From Tubulinosema ratisbonensis (Eukaryota > Microsporidia > Tubulinosematidae), in the NCBI GenBank assembly GCA_004000155.1, contig RCSS01000821.1, forward strand, positions 1 through 35,915: a stretch of DNA of 35,915 nucleotides, in the 5' to 3' direction. Made by a program: the position numbers and the translations under genes. This document shows, piece after piece, positions 9,476 to 33,031 of this stretch. Every line of letters begins with the position of its first letter. The first letter of the stretch is position 1. The notes below the pieces were generated by a model, which worked only from the letters and a program-made list of their open reading frames with translations, made no database searches and was not told where the DNA came from.

Positions 9476-9964
9476 ATGGAATGTAGCATTTGTAAAGAAA
9501 AAATAGAATTACCACACATGTTACCATGTAATGATACATTCTGTTATTTATGTATAAAAAGACATTTAATGTTAAGATCATACTGCCCAGTCTGTTTTAC
9601 TATGCCTGTAAACTCATCAGATCTGATCAGTTTGGTAAAAAATGAGAATAATATGCTCCCAGAAATAAAAGTTCCACTTAAATTCAAGCAAAGTGAATCT
9701 GTGCTCAAAAGAGAACTTAAAAAATATCAGTTAATTCTTACTGGTGATTATAATAGAATGGTTTGGAGGTTAAAAGAATATTTTTTGATTTATTCAGCTG
9801 AAAAATTAAAATCACTCTCTAAATCACCAACTGACATTGCTAGGCAGGTGCATAGAAATGAAGGATTGATTTTTAAAAAAGAAATTTTGATTGATAAAGA
9901 AATGTTACGTAAATACTTTCATAAATTAAAAGAAAAAATAAAAAAATTAAAAAACAGAAATTAA
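9476..9964 (+). CDS. RAD18: RAD18-like RING-SAP E3 ubiquitin ligase (compact)
   Basis: RAD18 with RAD6 monoubiquitinates PCNA at stalled replication forks in the nucleus to start DNA-damage tolerance. At the N-terminus is a RING finger with Cys3, Cys6, Cys18, Cys23, Cys26, Cys37 and Cys40. The usual fourth ligand, His of the CGHTFC motif, is Asp20 (CNDTFC), an unusual substitution. Residues about 76-109 form a SAP-like helix-turn-helix (LKRELKKYQL, then TGDYNRMVWRLKEY) followed by the Asn/Ser-Ala stretch typical after the RAD18 SAP. The basic tail is lysine-rich. At 162 residues the protein lacks the UBZ zinc finger and long C-terminal part of fungal and animal RAD18, in line with microsporidian gene shortening. 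The start is the first ATG, immediately before the RING; no CCC motif precedes it. It converges on SEC62 with 59 nt between stops. A different RING-SAP ligase is possible. Confidence 0.75.
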   Translation: MECSICKEKIELPHMLPCNDTFCYLCIKRHLMLRSYCPVCFTMPVNSSDLISLVKNENNMLPEIKVPLKFKQSESVLKRELKKYQLILTGDYNRMVWRLKEYFLIYSAEKLKSLSKSPTDIARQVHRNEGLIFKKEILIDKEMLRKYFHKLKEKIKKLKNRN

Positions 9965-10023: not shown

Positions 10024-10638
10024 TTAATCATCTTTTTTTGGTTTAGTGTCTACTCCATCCCTTTCCCAGAGTGGCACAAAAGATTCAAAGAATCCAACAT
10101 CAGCAAAGAAATTAGGAAATATCCAAATACCTGGAGGATTAAAGAAGAAAGTAATTATAAAGAAAATCAACCTAATAATAGCAACCACTACCAAAAAAAT
10201 GATAAACCCAATAATAGGATAAGAAGTGTACGATGCATAATGCTTTAAATTAGCAGGCCAAAGCTTAAACATTACCAAAAAAAGTGACAGCCCTAAAAAT
10301 AAAACAGAAATCAAAAGATTGTAAAAATTTGAAGGAGCTTTGATAAAAATGAAATTTTCGTTTGGTGAGAAATTACCAATCAAATTCAATTTACAAGAAG
10401 GAAGCTTTTCCTTGTCATTGTTTAGTTTTATTTTTATGATAATATCATTGTCTAACAGATAATTCATAAGAAAGACACAATCACTTTGGGAGTATTTTGT
10501 TTGGAGGATGTTTATTCCATCGGATCCTTTGAAGTAGTACACTCTTTTTGTGCCGTTTAGCAATGCTTCTTTTGTTTCTACTTTTCTAAGGAGAGATTCT
10601 AATTTAGAAATATTTATTTTCTTCTGGGATTGATTCAT
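10024..10638 (-). CDS. SEC62: Sec62, ER protein-translocation subunit
   Basis: Sec62 is an ER membrane protein that works with Sec63 and the Sec61 channel in post-translational import of secretory proteins. The 204-residue product has a basic cytosolic N-terminal domain with the family signature YYFKGSDGIN near residues 34-43, then two membrane segments at about 105-125 and 141-166 joined by a short loop that begins LWPANLK, close to the LWP motif of the family. After the second segment comes PPGIWIFPNFFADVGFFESF (168-187), the highly diagnostic C-terminal Sec62 block, then a short lysine-rich tail. The length is short compared with about 280 or more in yeast. The start is the first ATG of the frame and gives a sensible charged N-terminus. 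The import machinery it belongs to would serve the predicted secreted proteins of this window. Confidence 0.9.
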   Translation of the reverse strand: MNQSQKKINISKLESLLRKVETKEALLNGTKRVYYFKGSDGINILQTKYSQSDCVFLMNYLLDNDIIIKIKLNNDKEKLPSCKLNLIGNFSPNENFIFIKAPSNFYNLLISVLFLGLSLFLVMFKLWPANLKHYASYTSYPIIGFIIFLVVVAIIRLIFFIITFFFNPPGIWIFPNFFADVGFFESFVPLWERDGVDTKPKKDD

Positions 10639-12170: not shown

Positions 12171-15053
12171 CTAATAATTTGACAGATAAGCCAATAGATA
12201 TTTCCCCAACTCATTCAATTCAATAGTTCTTGTTCGATAAAAATTCTCATTGTCATAATTGCTAATATTTTGAAAAATCCTGCAGTTTTCTTTATGAAGA
12301 GTTTTGGCTATAATACCAGAACGATTTATTTTTAAAAAACCTATTGCTTCACTAACTAAATTTGGAGTTAAACCTTCTAATTGCAAATACTTACAAGAGT
12401 TTATGTTTATTATTTGTATTGGTAAATCTTCTTTACAAGGCTTTACTTTAGTACCGTGAAATATTTTCTCAATTATACACTCATCAAAAATATAAAATTC
12501 ATCAATAAAAAAGAAATTAAGAAATGTTGCATCTTCAATGCGAACATATGACAAGAATGCTTTAAAAAATAACATGGAAGATATTTGACTATTGTCTAGT
12601 AAATTGATTGAAGCCAACGCAATAGTAAACCTCATATCCATCATAAACATATTAAAAAAATTAGACTGGGTAATCATTTCTGCTTTTTTAATGCACTCCT
12701 CTGTTCGTGACTTAATGTTTTCTCTCAAAAAATGATATTTAAATGCAATTAAAGAAAAGAATAAATGAAACATTTTAAAGGTGGCAATATCAATAGTTGG
12801 AGTTTCTACCAAAAATTCAATAAAATATTTCAAATCCGGAAAAAGGGTTAATAAAATAAGATTTGTTTCATCATTAAAAAATGTAACTGTCCAATACTTA
12901 ATAATCTTTTCCGTGCAAAATTCGCTGTTTGGCAAAAAGTTTAGGCCAAAATACTTGGAATAATTTTCTATATCTGACATGTAAATTACTCTCATTTGAA
13001 GCATAAAATTTTTATAAATTATATTAAATCGGTTAATTAGACCCTCTAATTTTTTGCTAAAATCATTTACTTCATATGAAATATCATCTATAGAATTGAA
13101 TTCTGCACTGCCAGGGTAAAAATATTTTCTTATTTTGACATTATAAATAAAAGTACAAAAGAATTTATAGATTTCATTACTTGCATCAGAATGTTTTATA
13201 TCCCCAGGATAAAAAAAGGTATCTGGAAAACTTTTTTTCATTAGAAACAGATAAATTTTTTCAAATCGAGTAAAAAATGTATTTTCGATATTATTGACCA
13301 CCTTTATTACATTTAAACATTCATACAAACCAAGGTTTAGTTTTTTTTCAAAATCATATTCTACTGATTTACGAAATGTCAACCAAATATTACTATTTGT
13401 TTTTTGCGTGAGGATGGGTAATTGTGATTGTTCTATTTTAGTTATCGTATTAAATATTAAACCCAAAAATCTTTCAAATTCTTTGGTCAGGCAGTTCCAG
13501 ATAGGATAATTATCTAAATCATGATGATTAAACTGATTTATTGAAGAAGGAATCATCTTTAGAACCGATTTCATGTGTACCCGTTTATCGGAGGAATCTC
13601 TAAAACCCGATTCAATTTCTTTTTCATTTGGAAAATTTGAATCATGCAAACAATCCTCTTCATGTATTGAAAAAGGCGAGCTACACTGAGGAACTTGATT
13701 CATAGAATCAAAACTTATGGAATCTATATTTGCATCATTGTTAGAATTTTTATCTAGTATATCGAGAAAATGAAACTGATCTTGGTTTTCATGATCGCTA
13801 GAAGAAGATGAAAACATCTTACTGCTGGAAGATGATTCTTCTACATCTGTATTTTCATCTCGTAAAATAGGTTTAATACTTTCTTGAGTTGAAGAGGAAG
13901 GCCGTAATTGACTATTTGATTTGTCTGAAATTATGATCGGAATCGATTGCGATCCTATGTTAAAAAAAATTATATTATCTTTGGAAGAATGTTGCGAAAT
14001 TAGGTTGGTACTTGAGAAATCATTACCCAAAGGTAAATTTTTTAAAGATTGGTGTATATTCTGCGATGATCCATCAAGTATTTTTGCCCCTTTAAAATTT
14101 ATAAGATTAGGTTTAAGATTGTTTTGCTTTGAATTTGTTGGCGTTGTTTGTAACGGGAGTTCTTCTGTACTTATTTTCTGAAGGCTTTCGATTTTTTGCG
14201 TTGATTTTGTGAATGCAAATTGAACAGGTGTTTTAGATATAAAAGTAACATCGTTTTTTTCGTTTATCGCACAATTTGGACTGTTTATCTTTTCATTCAT
14301 TTTAAAAGTATCATTAACACTTAACTCATTTTCTTCTTCAAATATACTTAACATAGGAAGACCATAGCTGTTTGGAATTTCGGGGTTCTTTTCAGCATCT
14401 TTAATAATATTACTGATGTATTTATTATTTTTACGAGAACTCAATGATTCATTTGTCGTTTCTTTGTACTGAAATTTTTCTAATGTTGTTGGGTAATAGT
14501 CTACAATACTTTGAGGAACCACTTCATTTAAAGACGCTTGTAGACAGATTTCTTGTTCCTTAGAGGCTTTGTTGTCAAACAAAGCCTTGCATTCATTAGC
14601 CAAATCCTTTTCTAACATCTTAATTCTATTTTTATCAAATCCAACAGCATCTTGAATATCAATCTTAGGCGATACGGGTGATTGAGTCAATTGTGAATTT
14701 AATTGCAAGAAATAGCTCTGATATGTGGGTAAAAAGCTCTCGTCTTTATAAGATGTTAAGTTAGCGATTGCGTCTATTTCTTCATCTCTTTGATTTTTCG
14801 TAACATACGATTTTGTATTGTTTGAGGTTTCATGATTTGGTTTTTTGAAAGCTCCGTCACTTCCCGAGCTCTTTAACGGCAGTTCGGGTTTTAACTTTCT
14901 TACGTACTTGCGTTTTGGTCGTGGTTCTGAATCGTCATCTACCTCAACGGGTTTAGTTCTTTTAGTATGTTTACGCGGCGGCAAATAATCTGGATCCTTT
15001 TTTTTCGATAAAATGACAATCCCAAGTTGCATTAAGAACAAATAAAGTTTCAT
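12171..15053 (-). CDS. large predicted secreted protein with basic NLS-like clusters, unknown function
   Basis: No family was recognised in this 960-residue protein. I start it at the ATG at 15053, not the in-frame ATG four codons earlier, because TCCCCAT sits directly before it, the arrangement seen at other genes of the window. This gives MKLYLFLMQLGIVILS, a plausible signal peptide. Next come basic clusters RKHTKRTK (about 27-34) and RPKRKYVRK (about 45-53), which resemble nuclear localisation signals, the second also an AT-hook-like RPK core. Residues of about 60-530 are polar and likely disordered, with a serine-rich acidic tract near 400-425. From about 530 to the end the sequence becomes aromatic- and leucine-rich, consistent with an all-helical globular domain with several WLTF- and YFxxLNFLP-like segments. 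Signal plus NLS suggests export to host nuclei, as inference only. If the hydrophobic start is not a signal, it could be a parasite nuclear protein. Confidence 0.8.
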   Translation of the reverse strand: MKLYLFLMQLGIVILSKKKDPDYLPPRKHTKRTKPVEVDDDSEPRPKRKYVRKLKPELPLKSSGSDGAFKKPNHETSNNTKSYVTKNQRDEEIDAIANLTSYKDESFLPTYQSYFLQLNSQLTQSPVSPKIDIQDAVGFDKNRIKMLEKDLANECKALFDNKASKEQEICLQASLNEVVPQSIVDYYPTTLEKFQYKETTNESLSSRKNNKYISNIIKDAEKNPEIPNSYGLPMLSIFEEENELSVNDTFKMNEKINSPNCAINEKNDVTFISKTPVQFAFTKSTQKIESLQKISTEELPLQTTPTNSKQNNLKPNLINFKGAKILDGSSQNIHQSLKNLPLGNDFSSTNLISQHSSKDNIIFFNIGSQSIPIIISDKSNSQLRPSSSTQESIKPILRDENTDVEESSSSSKMFSSSSSDHENQDQFHFLDILDKNSNNDANIDSISFDSMNQVPQCSSPFSIHEEDCLHDSNFPNEKEIESGFRDSSDKRVHMKSVLKMIPSSINQFNHHDLDNYPIWNCLTKEFERFLGLIFNTITKIEQSQLPILTQKTNSNIWLTFRKSVEYDFEKKLNLGLYECLNVIKVVNNIENTFFTRFEKIYLFLMKKSFPDTFFYPGDIKHSDASNEIYKFFCTFIYNVKIRKYFYPGSAEFNSIDDISYEVNDFSKKLEGLINRFNIIYKNFMLQMRVIYMSDIENYSKYFGLNFLPNSEFCTEKIIKYWTVTFFNDETNLILLTLFPDLKYFIEFLVETPTIDIATFKMFHLFFSLIAFKYHFLRENIKSRTEECIKKAEMITQSNFFNMFMMDMRFTIALASINLLDNSQISSMLFFKAFLSYVRIEDATFLNFFFIDEFYIFDECIIEKIFHGTKVKPCKEDLPIQIININSCKYLQLEGLTPNLVSEAIGFLKINRSGIIAKTLHKENCRIFQNISNYDNENFYRTRTIELNELGKYLLAYLSNY

Positions 15054-15060
15054 ATGGGGA
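15054..15060 (-). promoter_or_regulatory. CCC start-codon motif of the 960-residue gene
   Basis: On the minus strand TCCCCAT immediately precedes the chosen ATG. CCC-like motifs just before start codons are known in microsporidia, and C-runs are rare in this AT-rich sequence, so the motif helps to choose the second in-frame ATG. Confidence 0.5.
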
Positions 15061-15065
15061 AGCAT

Positions 15066-17772: not shown

Positions 17773-18084
17773 TTAAAACCCACCTGTTTGGGAAGCAACA
17801 ACTTCTAATTCATCATCATCGTTCAACCTTAAATCAAAAGGTGTAACACCATGACCAACAATTTTACCCTTATAAATTAATCTCATATCATTTTTAGACC
17901 TTCCTGTTTCCTTAGCAAAAGAATCAAGTATCCTGCCAAAAGTAACGTTGCTTTTTGTTTTAAATTTGATTGATGGACCATCCTGCTCTTTTATTGTTAA
18001 GTTAATTGACTTTGTTTCTTCGTTTTCATTGTTAGATTCTTCATAATTATTTGAAATACTTTTTTCTTCTAAATCCTTAGTCAT
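17773..18084 (-). CDS. SMT3: SUMO (Smt3) ubiquitin-like modifier
   Basis: SUMO is conjugated to lysines of target proteins, mostly nuclear, by the E1-Ubc9-E3 cascade. The 103-residue product has an acidic disordered N-terminus (about 1-25) and a beta-grasp domain (about 26-97) with INLTIKEQDGPSIKFKTK, the GRSKNDMRLIYKGK segment and the TPFDLRLNDDDELEVV segment, all where SUMO has them. It ends QTGGF, so only a single Phe must be removed by a Ulp protease to expose the Gly-Gly used in conjugation. Length and domain match the family. The start is the first ATG, preceded by CCCTTAA on the minus strand. The LTR-like copy B lies about 215 nt upstream of its start. Confidence 0.95.
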   Translation of the reverse strand: MTKDLEEKSISNNYEESNNENEETKSINLTIKEQDGPSIKFKTKSNVTFGRILDSFAKETGRSKNDMRLIYKGKIVGHGVTPFDLRLNDDDELEVVASQTGGF

Positions 18085-23051: not shown

Positions 23052-25457
23052 TTAATAAATGGGATTTATTAATAATTTTGAATATCTCACGAGTTAATAA
23101 AAAAAATCATATCTTGAATCCTATTTTTGTGAAGAGTTTAAAGAAAAATACATTTTATTTTTAACAGTAATTTGTATAGACGCAAAAACACGTGCCTTTA
23201 TAACATACTAGAAAATCTTAAATGCATATGTTCTCAGAATTGTAACAGATATTTTTATAAAGAAATAAATATCAGTATTATCAATTGAACTATGGGTTTT
23301 AACATAAAAATTAAATTACCCCTTAAAGATTTTTACTTGTTTTGTACCAATGAAAAAATTTGTAAAAGTATAATTGGAAAATGAAAATTTTGACAGGAAA
23401 CTATCTCATTTCAAGAAAAGCTTACAATCTATTTTGAATTAAAATAACAAAAATCCCGGATTATTTGCGCTCCTGGTAAAATTATTTTGCATTTATTTTT
23501 TAAGCATTCTACAAAAATAAATACAATGTTTTAACTCAGGTAAATGTATAAAAACCCAATACTATAAACTTTACATATTATTTTCTAATTCTCACTGTTA
23601 TCAACAAAATTTTTTAAAAACACATAATTTTAAATTTTTTGATTAGCAATCATAATAAAATTTTTTTGCTTTGATTTTTATTTACTATTTAGACGTTTCA
23701 TAATGATAGAAGTTAATTAATTAAAAAAAACTTTTCTTTAATCAAAAGAAATATCCTTAAAATTTTAATTGTAGAAAAGATAGTTTATTTTTGCAGTTTA
23801 TGGGGAAAACTTTTTATGACTTTAAATTATTTACTAATATGTATGATTTGTCTTAATCAATTCTAAACATTAATGTATATTTAAGCATCATAATCTTTAG
23901 TTTACGGATACATCAAGCTTTGTATACACTAAAATTTATCATATGTGGTGTTCAACATCTTAATCTATTACATTTTTCAAGATTATATCACAAGATAGGA
24001 GTTACTCATGAAAAAAAATTTCAATACCGCTTTAAAATAAGAAAAAAACTTATTTCATACAAATCACAAAATTAAAAAGAATCAAGTGTAACTATACAAA
24101 AAAATACAATTTTACTGCATTTTCATAGATAAATGAAAATATTTTGGTATTATGATTTATAAAAACCGGCCTGATTTAAAGTTTTGGTAACATTCATTTT
24201 TTTAGTATTGTTATTATTAAAGATATCTATCATACTTCAAATAAAATTTACTATAAATAATGGTTTTTATCAGTTTGTGATGTAGATTTAAATTTTAAAG
24301 GATTTGGGCGGTGAGATAATATTAATTATTTATGCTGTACATAAAAAGGTCTGAAGTTTCAAAATTTATAGTTAATATGAGAAACTAGACCGATCTATGG
24401 ATTAATTGTAAAATAATGGAATTTTTAGAAGATAGCTAATATTTGGATTTAAATTGTTTTTAAAGTATATTTTAATAGAAACAATTAATTTAATAAATAA
24501 TCTTGAACGACAATTAAGGTAACAATACAGAGAATTTATTTAAAATTGGTGTATTTACGACAAATCCTAATTTTCTGGTTGTATTATTGATATAATTTAA
24601 CTTAACAATATTGTTTTTGTTATTTAATATTTTTAGGCTCTTTCTTATATTTAAAATGATATTTAAAAAACTGTGATACATAAAATTTTTTCATGAAATT
24701 TTTAAAATGGATTTAAAAATTTTAGCGTGATACAAAATATATTAAAATAGAGATATTAGACAATTTGATCAAATTTCCTACGAGATATAGCAATTTTTAT
24801 GTAAAAATTATAGTCTGCTCATATTATTTAAAATATTGTTTTTTTGCTTAATTAATATATTTTTTATTTTTCCGTTGTAATAAAGATTAATAGATTTTAG
24901 ATCATCAGAAAAATATGTTTTTTGAATATTTTATGAAAAAAAAAACAGTAAACTTTGAGTAAAAAATTAGTAAAATAGATATCTAATCAAATTTTTTATT
25001 ATACAGTTTCATTGTGATAAATAAAATTTTAGCATATTAGCAAAGCGTTAAAAATTTCAAATTCGTTATGAATTAATCAAAACTCCTTTTTAAATTTTAT
25101 ATTCTTTATTTTCCTCTTTTAAAATCATAAATTAAGTTTTGAAAATTTGAATTTTAGAATATATGCACATATTAATAAACAAAGATATAATATTTTATGT
25201 GTGATAATTTTTTTTTAAATTTTATTTTAAAGATTTAAATTTAAATATAAAATTTTTTACTTGCTGATTATAATATCCTAAAGTAGAATATTCTTGAGAG
25301 ACATTTTTAAATTTAAATGGCGATAAAACTCTCAATATAGTATCAATATATTTATCATAATTGTTTAAAAAGTAAGAAAGTGGGGTCATCACAATAACTT
25401 TGTTGTCTTATCAGGAAAATTAAAAAATTTTATGATAAAATTAAAAAATTTACCCAT
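23052..25457. other. long intergenic stretch, nothing recognised
   Basis: About 2.4 kb of strongly AT-rich sequence without a supported frame, repeat or transposase motif. It should contain the promoter of the TBC gene at its right end, where only the CCC motif at 25453-25455 stands out. Confidence 0.5.
25453..25457 (+). promoter_or_regulatory. CCC start-codon motif of the TBC gene
   Basis: TTTACCCAT directly precedes the ATG at 25458, the same CCCAT-ATG arrangement as in the 960-residue gene. It favours this ATG over internal ones. Confidence 0.5.
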
Positions 25458-27050
25458 ATGTCTAAAATGCCGAAAGTAGTAAATTGTTACATTGGCGAAG
25501 TTCAAAAGATGCAGCCTAAAAAACGACCTTTAGATGCATATAAAAGAAATCTTTGCGAGCTTGATTTACAAATGCAAAGAAATTTTGCACAAAATAAGTT
25601 TTTCAAAACTTATGTTTCTTTTTTTATATTTTTATTCTCTTTTAGTAATGTGTATTGTCAAAATGGTGGTAATTTTGATTCTACATTATCTGACTATGTA
25701 ATCATATCACACAGTGATCTAAATTCCTACTACGATAGCCAATCTAAGGATAGAGAAATGTTTACCGACACTAAAAGCGCTAATGTTGAGAGTAAAGATA
25801 CTGAAAACTTTTTAAAGATTGTCAATAGTAATATATCTGACAATAAAGACAACAAAATGAGTACTAGAAACAGTGATGAATCAGAGCGAAACAGTGCAGA
25901 CTCTAGCGTTGCTGATGAGCAAATGGTTGAATTTAGTTCTGAATTTGAAAACATATCAAAAGATAGTTTGTCAGATGAAATGAGTATAATCCCTTACACC
26001 GATATGTTTCAAAACGAAAACTGTTGTCATAACGAACAAAAAAATATTCAACAAAATGTTACTTTATATGAACGACAAAAAGCTATCGAGAACGCTTCTT
26101 TTTTTGAACCTTCTCAAGATGTTTTTCCATTAGAAAAAAAATTTAACGACAATATTTCGCAATATGATAATTTAGTTGAACAAGCTATCTTTGAAAAAAA
26201 TGTTGATGCTTTGAAATTAAGTTCTTTTAATGGTTTTCCATCTCAATATCGCAGCGCTGCTTGGAAATTATTATTGAATCCAAAAAAGATTCATCTTTTA
26301 TCTCGCCCTGTTAGTTATTTACATAAAGAAATCGATAACATTCTTAAGGATTTGCCTAGATTACCTAAAATCGAATTAATCTTTGGCGAACAATATAAAA
26401 ATTATTTTACATTAAAATTACTCAATTTTTTGAAAAAGTTTATAGCCGTGAGACCAGAAATTGGTTATTACCAAGGATTGGATAACATAGCATTTGAGCT
26501 TTTGGTATATTTGCCCAAAGATGATTCTTTTGAAGATTTGCGTTTAGAAATGTTTGTAACAATGATTGATGAAATTTATGAACATTTCGTTTCTGACAAT
26601 TTTAAAAATTTTGACGATTTTGCTGCAAAAACAGAAGATATTATAAAGCTTTATCGTCCAGATCTTTATGAAAAAATCGATTTTGATTCATTTAAGTGCT
26701 CAATATTATTTGATTACTATGTAACTTTATTTTGTAGAATGGATGTTGGTAAAGCAATAAGATTTTTAGATGTTTATTGTTCATATGGAAATATCAGCTT
26801 ACATTTTTTTGCATTGGGAATTTTAGAATATTTTTCTGAAAAAATTAACGAAAATTATCTGACGGTAGAGAGTAGATTACTTTTTATTATTGATTTAAAA
26901 AATAATTTGGTTCAAACTATTGATATTGATGAAGTTATGAAAATTACTAAAAAATATATTTTAAATTATCAAGAAGAGCACATTAAGCCCGAAGAGAAGG
27001 GATATTTTTCGGTACTAGGATTGTTTTACTCAAGGTTGATAGGCAATTAG
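25458..27050 (+). CDS. TBC-domain RabGAP, possibly secreted or membrane-anchored
   Basis: TBC proteins switch Rab GTPases off by accelerating GTP hydrolysis and so control vesicle traffic. The TBC domain spans about residues 254-500, with GFPSQYRSAAWKLLLN at its start. Both catalytic fingers are intact: IxxDxxR at 295-301 (Arg301) and YxQ at 337-339 (Gln339, in GYYQGLDN), so the protein should be active. Before it, residues 70-240 are acidic, Ser/Asn-rich and likely disordered. At 52-66 lies a hydrophobic run (VSFFIFLFSFSNVYC from 53) that is unusual for a RabGAP. Starting at Met39 (25572) it would be a classical signal peptide; starting at Met1 it would be a signal anchor. The CCC motif supports Met1 (530 residues). 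The gene sits near two other predicted secreted-protein genes on the same strand. Export to the host is inference; anchoring to a parasite membrane is the alternative. Confidence 0.9.
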   Translation: MSKMPKVVNCYIGEVQKMQPKKRPLDAYKRNLCELDLQMQRNFAQNKFFKTYVSFFIFLFSFSNVYCQNGGNFDSTLSDYVIISHSDLNSYYDSQSKDREMFTDTKSANVESKDTENFLKIVNSNISDNKDNKMSTRNSDESERNSADSSVADEQMVEFSSEFENISKDSLSDEMSIIPYTDMFQNENCCHNEQKNIQQNVTLYERQKAIENASFFEPSQDVFPLEKKFNDNISQYDNLVEQAIFEKNVDALKLSSFNGFPSQYRSAAWKLLLNPKKIHLLSRPVSYLHKEIDNILKDLPRLPKIELIFGEQYKNYFTLKLLNFLKKFIAVRPEIGYYQGLDNIAFELLVYLPKDDSFEDLRLEMFVTMIDEIYEHFVSDNFKNFDDFAAKTEDIIKLYRPDLYEKIDFDSFKCSILFDYYVTLFCRMDVGKAIRFLDVYCSYGNISLHFFALGILEYFSEKINENYLTVESRLLFIIDLKNNLVQTIDIDEVMKITKKYILNYQEEHIKPEEKGYFSVLGLFYSRLIGN

Positions 27051-27749: not shown

Positions 27750-28346
27750 ATGTTGATTCTTTCTATCCTTTTAATTTCAAAATGTGCTCCTGTTCAAAGT
27801 CCATATTTCTTTCAAGAACATTCAACGGCTTCAAATTATCCTTTAGAGCTATTTCGCTATCATCCAACCCAATCAAATTACTTGAGGTATCATCCTACAG
27901 CACAGTTTAGATATCCAATGTATGTGGACCCAAATCAATATTACGTGAATGTTGGTTTTAGAGGTACAGCAAGACAACCCTCTTCTTTTAACCTACAGAA
28001 CTCACCTTTTGTGCCAGACTTAATGACTCTTTATAATCCACTTCATTCACAAACATCCTTAAACACTAATTCATGTTTTCATAATATTCCACTTGAAGTA
28101 AATAATAACACGGCCAAAACCCCCACACTTAATAATGATCATTTATCTTTTAATGCGTTCACTTTTTTTCACCTTTCAGAAACGGAGACTCAAGCTTTAG
28201 CTCAATCAAATCCCCAAAATGCAGCTTTTTTTAAAATTTTAAAAAACAAACCAGATATTTTCAGAGAATATTTATTTCTTCGTGATGATGAATGCGAAGA
28301 ATCTCTAAAATGTACATTGATTTTTATAGATGATTTACTCGGTTAA
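27750..28346 (+). CDS. predicted secreted Tyr/Pro/Asn-rich protein, unknown function
   Basis: No family was recognised. The 198-residue product starts MLILSILLISKCAPVQSPYF, a short signal peptide with likely cleavage after APVQS. The N-terminal half is rich in Tyr, Pro, Asn and Gln and contains an imperfect repeat, FRYHPTQSNY, then LRYHPTAQF, then RYPMY, reminiscent of low-complexity structural proteins. The C-terminal half (about 130-198) looks like a small folded helical region with SETETQALAQ, a Phe/Lys segment and an acidic end with two Cys in DDECEESLKC. It lies 0.7 kb downstream of the TBC gene on the same strand. A spore-wall or polar-tube role would fit the composition but has no direct support. 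The start is the first ATG after the CCCC motif. Confidence 0.75.
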   Translation: MLILSILLISKCAPVQSPYFFQEHSTASNYPLELFRYHPTQSNYLRYHPTAQFRYPMYVDPNQYYVNVGFRGTARQPSSFNLQNSPFVPDLMTLYNPLHSQTSLNTNSCFHNIPLEVNNNTAKTPTLNNDHLSFNAFTFFHLSETETQALAQSNPQNAAFFKILKNKPDIFREYLFLRDDECEESLKCTLIFIDDLLG

Positions 28347-30998: not shown

Positions 30999-31850
30999 AT
31001 GATATTATTTATATTTTTTTTAAAAATTAATACCACAAGTTTTTATTCTTCAGTTTATAACTCATTCCAACGTGCAAATTCATACATCACACAATTATCA
31101 TCTATATTTTTTGAACGAGATATTCATGAAAAAGATCTTGAATCAAACATTGAAGATAAATATACTTTCGGATTGACAGACTTTTATTTAGAAGATGATT
31201 ATTGTATAGAATTGTTTGGTAAATCAAAAAGTGACCAGGTATACAAATTTTACACTCTTTATTCACCAAGTGATTCTCAGAATTTTGAACAGGATAAGGA
31301 ACTCATTTTGCTATTTAATGCAAATGATTTGTCTTTTTTACAAAAAATGTTCAAAGATAGAATTTATCCTTCGGATGAAGAAGAAAAAAATAAATTTGTA
31401 CAAAAAATTTTAAGAGAAAATTATGAAAATAAAAGTGTCTCAGCAGAAGAAATCAGAAAAACTACAATTGAAAACAACAAAAACAAAAAATTTATGTCTT
31501 TAAACGATAACGAAGCACAATTTTTGGTTCAAATACAAACAAAATCTAGCGCATTCGCCCCTGACACAAAAAACAAGCCAGGTTCTTTAGAGATATTAGA
31601 TCAATTAGTTTATCAAAAATCAATAACAAAATTGAAAACGGGAAAAGATTTCGCTAAAAATTTAGAAGAAATAGTTTCTGTTGAAGATTATATGATTCTT
31701 CAAGATAATTTAAACGAAATGATGTGTAGGGTTTTAGAAAAGAAAAAATATAATTTAGGCGCGATGGTACATGGTGTAGAGATTTTATTTAGGTTTAATG
31801 GCAAGTATTTCTTTTTATCTAAGGCAGAAGTTGTTAATAAAGATGATTGA
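30999..31850 (+). CDS. predicted secreted protein, unknown function
   Basis: No family was recognised in this 283-residue protein. It begins MILFIFFLKINTTSFYSSVY, a short hydrophobic signal-like segment with likely cleavage near FYS. The remainder is hydrophilic, with no second membrane segment. It has a region of mixed strand and helix (about 50-110, containing YTFGLTDFYLEDDYCIELFG), a lysine/asparagine-rich middle (about 125-170) and a C-terminal part (about 200-283) ending in the aromatic FNGKYFFLSKAE segment. There are only two Cys. The start is fixed by the CCC motif and by the lack of coding character upstream. Its stop is only about 110 nt from the truncated gypsy integrase, so an insertion or rearrangement lies very close to its 3' end. 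Confidence 0.75.
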   Translation: MILFIFFLKINTTSFYSSVYNSFQRANSYITQLSSIFFERDIHEKDLESNIEDKYTFGLTDFYLEDDYCIELFGKSKSDQVYKFYTLYSPSDSQNFEQDKELILLFNANDLSFLQKMFKDRIYPSDEEEKNKFVQKILRENYENKSVSAEEIRKTTIENNKNKKFMSLNDNEAQFLVQIQTKSSAFAPDTKNKPGSLEILDQLVYQKSITKLKTGKDFAKNLEEIVSVEDYMILQDNLNEMMCRVLEKKKYNLGAMVHGVEILFRFNGKYFFLSKAEVVNKDD

Positions 31851-31960: not shown

Positions 31961-33031
31961 NGAAAAGATGAAGATTACNACNCAAAANTAAAAAATTTGC
32001 ACGAATACCTCGGTCATGTGGNAATAAGAAAACTCTATTACACAATAAAAGATCATGAAAGAATCCCCAANCTACAAAAAATAATAACCGANGTAATAAA
32101 CAATTGCAAATATTGNCAAAANGCAAAAGAAACNAAAATTAAATANGGAAAAATTCAAGGGAATCTCATTTCAACAATCCCTTTCAAATTTATTTCCACG
32201 GNTATTCTAGNCCCCCTGNATNTAAGAGATATTCTAAAAACAAATNTTCCAAGTANAATATATCTTCTAACAATCACAGATCTATGCACAAGATGGACTG
32301 AAATAGGANTTTTGAAGGATTTGACATCTAAAACTACCACACGAACATTTGAAAATATATGGTTAAAGAAAATGATAAATCCAGACAAAATTCTTTCAGA
32401 CCAAGGGAAACAATTTACCGGATTGCCATTTATAAACATGTGCCAGAGAAGAAAAATCAAACAAATTTTTACTACACCTAATAACCCAACAGGAAACGGA
32501 GTTTCCGAAAGAATAAACCTAAGTATTTTGGAATTTTTAAGAATGAAAATCCCACACCAAAATGTTAAATCACTGATCGAAAAGATTAAGATTAAAATAA
32601 ATTATACTTTCCACAGAGTACTTAAAACATCACCTTTTATCTTAAAATTCGGATACGACCCTCTAACAAAACAAAAGAAGAACAGAAAAAAATTGTTAGA
32701 AATGTCAATTCAAGCAAACTTTTTAAACGCAAAAAAGAACAACCAATTAAAAAATAGAACAAGAAAAAAGTTTAATTATAAAATAGGAGATTTGGTAATG
32801 ATAAAACTAAAAAGACAACGAAAGCTAGATGAATGTTTCGAAGGACCAGGCAAAATCATAGCAATAAAATATAATCAGAATAATCTTAAAATACTCATTA
32901 ACAAAAAAGAAAAGTGGATTAATGTTAAAAATTTAAAACCCTGGAGAGGAGTAGAGTGNGGTACATTAGGTAACCANGTTAAAACTAACCAATCAGCAAA
33001 TAACAAAAAATTATTAAATAAAAATATTTAA
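31961..33031 (+). pseudogene. 5'-truncated Ty3/gypsy retrotransposon integrase
   Basis: Integrase joins retrotransposon DNA to the genome. The open frame begins after a stop at 31958-31960 with no ATG. Near its start is an HHCC zinc module (HEYLGH, a later His, then NCKYxQ, where the last Cys codon is TGN at 32114-32116). The catalytic core has the first Asp codon as GNT (32201-32203, unresolved) in a T-x-IL-x-PL motif, the second Asp in LSDQGKQFTG and the Glu in GNGVSERIN. The C-terminal part has IGDLVMIKLKRQRKLDECFE then GPGKI, the GPY/F-type module. Protease, reverse transcriptase and RNase H are absent upstream, so the copy is truncated. Twenty ambiguous bases fall in it, 18 of them before 32310, which suggests merged copies or poor reads. 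LTR-like copy C starts about 60 nt after the stop. Confidence 0.85.

Follow-up and report, generated by a model that had tools for sequence, protein, structure and literature searches.

We identify the gene at positions 25,458 to 27,050 (+) of contig RCSS01000821.1 from Tubulinosema ratisbonensis, a microsporidian parasite of Drosophila, as encoding a divergent Rab GTPase-activating protein (RabGAP) of the TBC class, which is probably catalytically competent judging from its domain, its catalytic fingers and its predicted fold. With a probability of about 0.72, we consider that this protein acts inside the parasite, without a signal peptide, in the parasite's own vesicle traffic. A preliminary description of the window, that is, the whole stretch of 35,915 nucleotides analysed here, had proposed an exported RabGAP that rewires host traffic. 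That proposal needs translation to start at Met39, and the start signal and the base composition of the gene argue against this. The genome sequence searched comprised 4.12 Mb in 236 contigs, about half the length of the published draft (7.56 Mb, 952 contigs, G+C 23.2%; PMC6675976), and gene counts given below are lower bounds. Scanning it with a model of microsporidian SSU rRNA gave no match.

Read from the ATG of Met1, the open reading frame (ORF) specifies 530 amino acids. Residues 263-463 (26,244 to 26,846, +) match the Pfam RabGAP-TBC profile (PF00566) with an E-value of 2.3e-16 and 60.6 bits, above the curated cut-off of 25.2 bits, and Pfam detects no accessory domain in the protein. Both catalytic fingers are kept: the Arg finger is Arg301 in ILKDLPR (residues 295-301; codon at 26,358 to 26,360, +) and the Gln finger is Gln339 in YYQ (residues 337-339; codon at 26,472 to 26,474, +). 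A phmmer alignment with human RabGAP1 (4nc6) pairs ILKDLPR with ITRDINR and GYYQG with GYCQG; the fingers therefore occupy homologous positions and are no chance motif matches. A structure model of moderate confidence predicts an all-helical TBC fold for this part of the protein, while a single-sequence model of the full length had a mean predicted local distance difference test score (pLDDT) of 35.7 and was not used. The TBC domain with intact fingers described earlier is thus borne out by Pfam and the RabGAP1 alignment, and domain, fingers and predicted fold also support the suggestion of an active RabGAP, although GAP activity itself is something we infer.

Translation likely starts at Met1. 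Microsporidian start signals described in PMC2803860 are CCC-like or GGG-like motifs just before the start codon; the same source reports 5′ untranslated regions of less than 7 nucleotides in Encephalitozoon cuniculi and an AAATTT-like element upstream of ribosomal-protein genes, Anncaliia algerae included. The sequence directly preceding Met1, AAATTTACCCAT, combines an AAATTT-like element (25,446 to 25,451, +) with a CCC-like signal at -5 to -3 (25,453 to 25,455, +), and the 33 nucleotides at -40 to -8 are 97% A+T. By comparison, the 40 nucleotides before Met39 (25,572 to 25,574, +) contain no CCC and include 12 G or C, which corresponds to 70% A+T. We counted CCC at positions -12 to -1 before ATGs in twenty 10-kb stretches of the T. 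ratisbonensis genome, the internal set being in-frame ATGs within the first 100 codons of ORFs. Among ORFs of at least 200 amino acids, CCC preceded 19 of 58 first ATGs versus none of 78 internal ones. The corresponding counts were 20/66 versus 1/95 for ORFs of at least 150 amino acids and 8/34 versus 0/44 for those of at least 300, and CCC occurred within 12 nucleotides of 202 of 10,000 random genome positions.

Base composition points the same way, as codons 1-38 look coding. Their 114 nucleotides have a G+C content of 33.3%, compared with 21.1% in the 114 nucleotides before Met1 and 16.1% in the preceding 186. A value of 33% was attained in none of 47 comparable stretches upstream of ORFs. 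A Markov model of DNA near the gene that is presumed to be intergenic attained it in 2 of 5,000 simulated runs and yielded 38 stop-free codons in 131 of 5,000. Furthermore, counting from Met1, Met39 comes fourth among the in-frame ATGs and fifth among all ATGs, with two further in-frame ATGs and one out-of-frame ATG lying between the two. Met39 was rejected as the start on the start signal and the composition of codons 1-38 taken together, and the textbook signal peptide expected from initiation there is accordingly not supported.

The hydrophobic run at residues 52-66 (25,611 to 25,655, +) is real and lies where it had been placed: the best 15-residue segment begins at residue 53, with a mean Kyte-Doolittle hydropathy of 1.73. 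Counted from Met1, it is preceded by 51 residues. Such a run is unexceptional for the T. ratisbonensis proteome. An equal or stronger run within the first 100 residues was found in 21 of 52 ORFs of at least 200 amino acids, the window protein included (11 of 63 ORFs, with X in that region, were left out). When the whole protein was shuffled, a run at least as strong arose somewhere in 559 of 1,000 trials. In a census of 72 ORFs of at least 150 amino acids with no more than 5 X, runs with a mean of at least 1.7 were absent from 40, single in 17 and more numerous in 15. The run of the window protein is the weakest among the 17 single-run ORFs, seven of which have their run, of 1.97 to 2.33, located at least 78 residues in. 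When scored over 21 residues, the length of a membrane span, it reaches 1.06, compared with 1.23 for residues 436-456 within the TBC domain, and a crude, position-independent 19-residue sum using the Hessa scale gives +5.15, which is unfavourable for insertion. Most likely, the run does not serve as an N-terminal signal peptide.

Several observations weigh against a parasite-internal protein that starts at Met1. CCC is missing at 39 of the 58 first ATGs, and a CCC-less Met39 alone would not exclude a start there. The strength of the run was attained in only 118 of 3,000 shuffles of residues 1-100. The flank before it is basic (11 K/R and 4 D/E in residues 1-51) and the one after it acidic, which is the pattern of a signal anchor, and by inspection the V-Y-C that follows is compatible with signal-peptidase cleavage. 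Additionally, the N-terminal run of a neighbouring ORF at 30,999 to 31,850 (+), likely a signal peptide judged by its position, is no stronger than that of the TBC protein, scoring 1.64 versus 1.73 over 15 residues and 2.18 versus 2.19 over 11. Protein database searches retrieved no ortholog of the window protein; in one of them, two of the four query sequences (L001 and L017) did not return themselves either, so coverage of the T. ratisbonensis genome by the database or the search is incomplete and this absence says little. That search gave 14 proteins, mainly relatives of the TBC gene on contig C74 (below) and proteins named TBC1D13, and the others gave only the window's own protein. Met1 is nevertheless favoured because the start signal and the composition are combined, the absence of CCC not being decisive alone. 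Likewise, since the run at 30,999 is equally strong, strength alone is indecisive and position carries most weight.

Export from a Met1 start would require residues 52-66 to serve as a recessed signal or signal anchor for translocation into the parasite endoplasmic reticulum, so that the TBC domain would come to lie in, or face, the host cytosol and inactivate host Rabs. We regard this as unlikely, and rate slightly lower the specific case in which a canonical two-finger TBC RabGAP is exported to turn off host Rabs by means of a signal segment that is recessed rather than N-terminal. By the positive-inside rule, insertion of the run would leave the TBC domain on the lumenal or exported side, in keeping with a lone hydrophobic run that has basic residues before it and an acidic tail after it, and that equals the run at 30,999 over both 11 and 15 residues. 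The Met1 start, which puts 51 residues ahead of the run, speaks against this route, as do the last rank of the run among single-run ORFs, several of which carry stronger runs farther in, the higher 21-residue score of a stretch within the TBC domain, and the unfavourable insertion sum. Moreover, the neighbouring ORFs at 27,750 and 30,999 have their hydrophobic stretch at residue 1 and CCC ahead of the ATG and, judged by position, make stronger candidates for secretion than the TBC protein does. There are also precedents that would favour export: otherwise cytosolic proteins acquire signal peptides in microsporidia (PMC6460350), the exit of Nematocida parisii is served by host RAB-11 (cited in PMC5423893), and a secreted Phytophthora effector works as a RabGAP (PMC12315501).

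It is about equally improbable that residues 52-66, perhaps 47-68, anchor the protein in a membrane inside the parasite and leave its TBC domain facing the parasite cytosol, mirroring at the N-terminus those TBC proteins that carry a C-terminal anchor. TBC1D20 is a TBC protein with a transmembrane segment, and in the window protein the single run lies ahead of a long linker, but for a membrane span this run is short, and it contains serine; moreover, the flanking charges point to the opposite orientation. The TBC set of Toxoplasma also includes transmembrane segments (PMC11101121). Less probable than either is an unrecognised short intron that would make the run artefactual. A 48-nucleotide in-frame GT...AG segment at 25,598-25,645, ending TTCTCTTTTAG, would take out the run and is among the 6 in-frame options of 23 candidates. 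Splicing machinery is probably present, as indicated by a Prp8-type PROCN domain in a 1,381-residue frame (contig C7, 19,810-20,718, −) and a U6 RNA match (L038; contig C15, 13,838-13,935, −). However, the 5′ site, GTTTTT, fits the GTAAGT consensus at only 3 of 6 positions, and by inspection the AG has no TAA branch-point-like stretch just ahead of it. The best 5′ site, GTAAAT (5 of 6), belongs to two candidates that both break the frame.

For the parasite-internal RabGAP that we prefer, we envisage translation beginning at Met1, after which the TBC domain would engage a GTP-bound parasite Rab, and insertion of Arg301 and Gln339 would accelerate GTP hydrolysis and thereby turn the Rab off. The extension of about 235 residues may position the enzyme via protein contacts or via a weak association of residues 52-66 with a membrane. 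The substrate, the disorder of the extension and the location inside the parasite are, like GAP activity, points that we infer. Since a parasite that has Rabs of its own would also need RabGAPs of its own, an internal role would call for no extra assumption. The candidate substrates are Rab1-, Rab5- and Rab11-like proteins of the same genome, in which we found nine Ras-superfamily places. By best solved relative, the Rabs are of the Rab5/Ypt51 (L005, contig C184), Rab11/Ypt31 and Rab1/Ypt1 types, the Rab11-like and Rab1-like genes (L006 and L007, contig C151) being convergent neighbours; the remaining six places look, by inspection, like Rho, Ran, Arf/Sar and signal recognition particle (SRP)-receptor types.

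The genome also holds other TBC genes. Two lie above the profile cut-off, one on contig C227 that is USP6NL/RabGAP1-like by solved relatives, and one on C74 that is Gyp1- and TBC1D22-like by solved relatives and TBC1D13-like by the names of retrieved relatives. An ORF on C74 (L002) is identical to the T. ratisbonensis protein TUBRATIS_007440. A diverged TBC-like ORF on C34 was detected through its similarity to the window protein, whose TBC part shares 25% identity with the C227 protein over 213 residues and 23% with the C34 protein over 185. The C34 ORF (L017, 1,453-2,316, −; 287 amino acids) keeps YIQG and, in an alignment, has no Arg at the position of the Arg finger, the Arg of VIEDEVIR being displaced by one residue, suggesting from its sequence that the protein may be non-catalytic. 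A further PF00566 place on C61 was dropped, as it scored 21.5 bits, under the cut-off, in a 569-residue ORF with neither finger motif. The resulting sets of three Rab-like and four TBC-like genes are lower bounds.

Among known systems, the best solved relatives by sequence are TBC domains of the RabGAP1, TBC1D4, TBC1D1 and USP6NL type. The window protein shares with RabGAP1 the positions of the IxxDxxR and YxQ fingers, and its predicted TBC fold is all-helical. In contrast, similarity to this type is weak (the five best score about 21 to 32 bits), and the protein combines the lack of a Pfam accessory domain with a 235-residue N-terminal extension unmatched among the frames examined. TBC1D20 and Gyp8 are Rab1 GAPs with a C-terminal membrane anchor, whereas the window protein has none, its best 15-residue segment in residues 464-530 reaching 1.14 on the Kyte-Doolittle scale. 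Membership in the Gyp8/TBC1D20 group, prompted by YYQG, was rejected on this ground and because TBC1D20 is missing from the 9 matches by sequence with E <= 10. Pi17063 of Phytophthora infestans is likewise a eukaryotic-pathogen RabGAP, with conserved arginines important for its GAP role; it is a secreted RXLR effector described as an atypical GAP (PMC12315501), unlike the window protein, a canonical TBC protein that is probably not secreted. Toxoplasma gondii offers a parallel in having the parasite's own TBC set, with both fingers in 10 of its proteins, but that set numbers 18 compared with at least four TBC-like genes here. The Toxoplasma proteins include transmembrane domains among their extra motifs and are located in the parasite secretory pathway and cytoplasmic vesicles (PMC11101121). 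Literature searches combining microsporidia with TBC domains or RabGAPs, or covering exported parasite RabGAPs, found none that describes a RabGAP from microsporidia or its export. One paper found in this way names, in its tables, TBC proteins of the silkworm host, and 'TBC' and 'GAP' are absent as whole words from the main text of a paper on host-exposed proteins of Nematocida (PMC5423893).

Beyond the hydrophobic run, residues 69-235 (25,662 to 26,162, +) form a linker whose best match among the other stop-free frames examined has an E-value of 2.7. The long acidic disordered linker of the preliminary description holds as regards charge, with 29 D/E and 13 K/R in residues 69-215; disorder can be suggested only as a probable property, of most of the first 235 or so residues. 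A fusion with the N-terminus of a neighbouring secreted protein was considered and set aside, since residues 1-68, 1-235 and 69-235 had no match better than E 0.28 among 1,535 stop-free frames of at least 40 amino acids from the window and the fetched loci, the gene itself aside.

Elsewhere in the window, the ORFs at 27,750-28,346 (+) and 30,999-31,850 (+), each hydrophobic from its start and with CCC shortly before its ATG, have no Pfam match; nor does a 964-residue ORF at 12,171-15,065 (−), which is hydrophobic from residue 5 (1.98 over 15 residues). An integrase-core-like segment with ambiguous bases at 32,372-33,031 (+; rve, E 3.5e-4, below the family cut-off) is probably part of a retroelement. 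Pfam also identifies Sec62 (10,024-10,638, −), a SUMO-like protein (17,773-18,084, −) and a RING-finger protein (9,476-9,964, +).

In summary, if our reading is correct, the gene enlarges the small set of traffic regulators in a reduced parasite by one divergent TBC protein. It also carries a practical lesson, namely that a downstream Met in a microsporidian gene should not be taken as the beginning of a signal peptide until the start signals have been examined. Were the protein exported after all, it would be a host-directed RabGAP of a fly parasite, and parasite control of host Rabs would become testable in Drosophila cells. Export via the recessed segment would further represent, in a eukaryotic parasite, a counterpart of the bacterial effectors that inactivate Rabs, and would reveal a type of secretion signal that is new for microsporidia.
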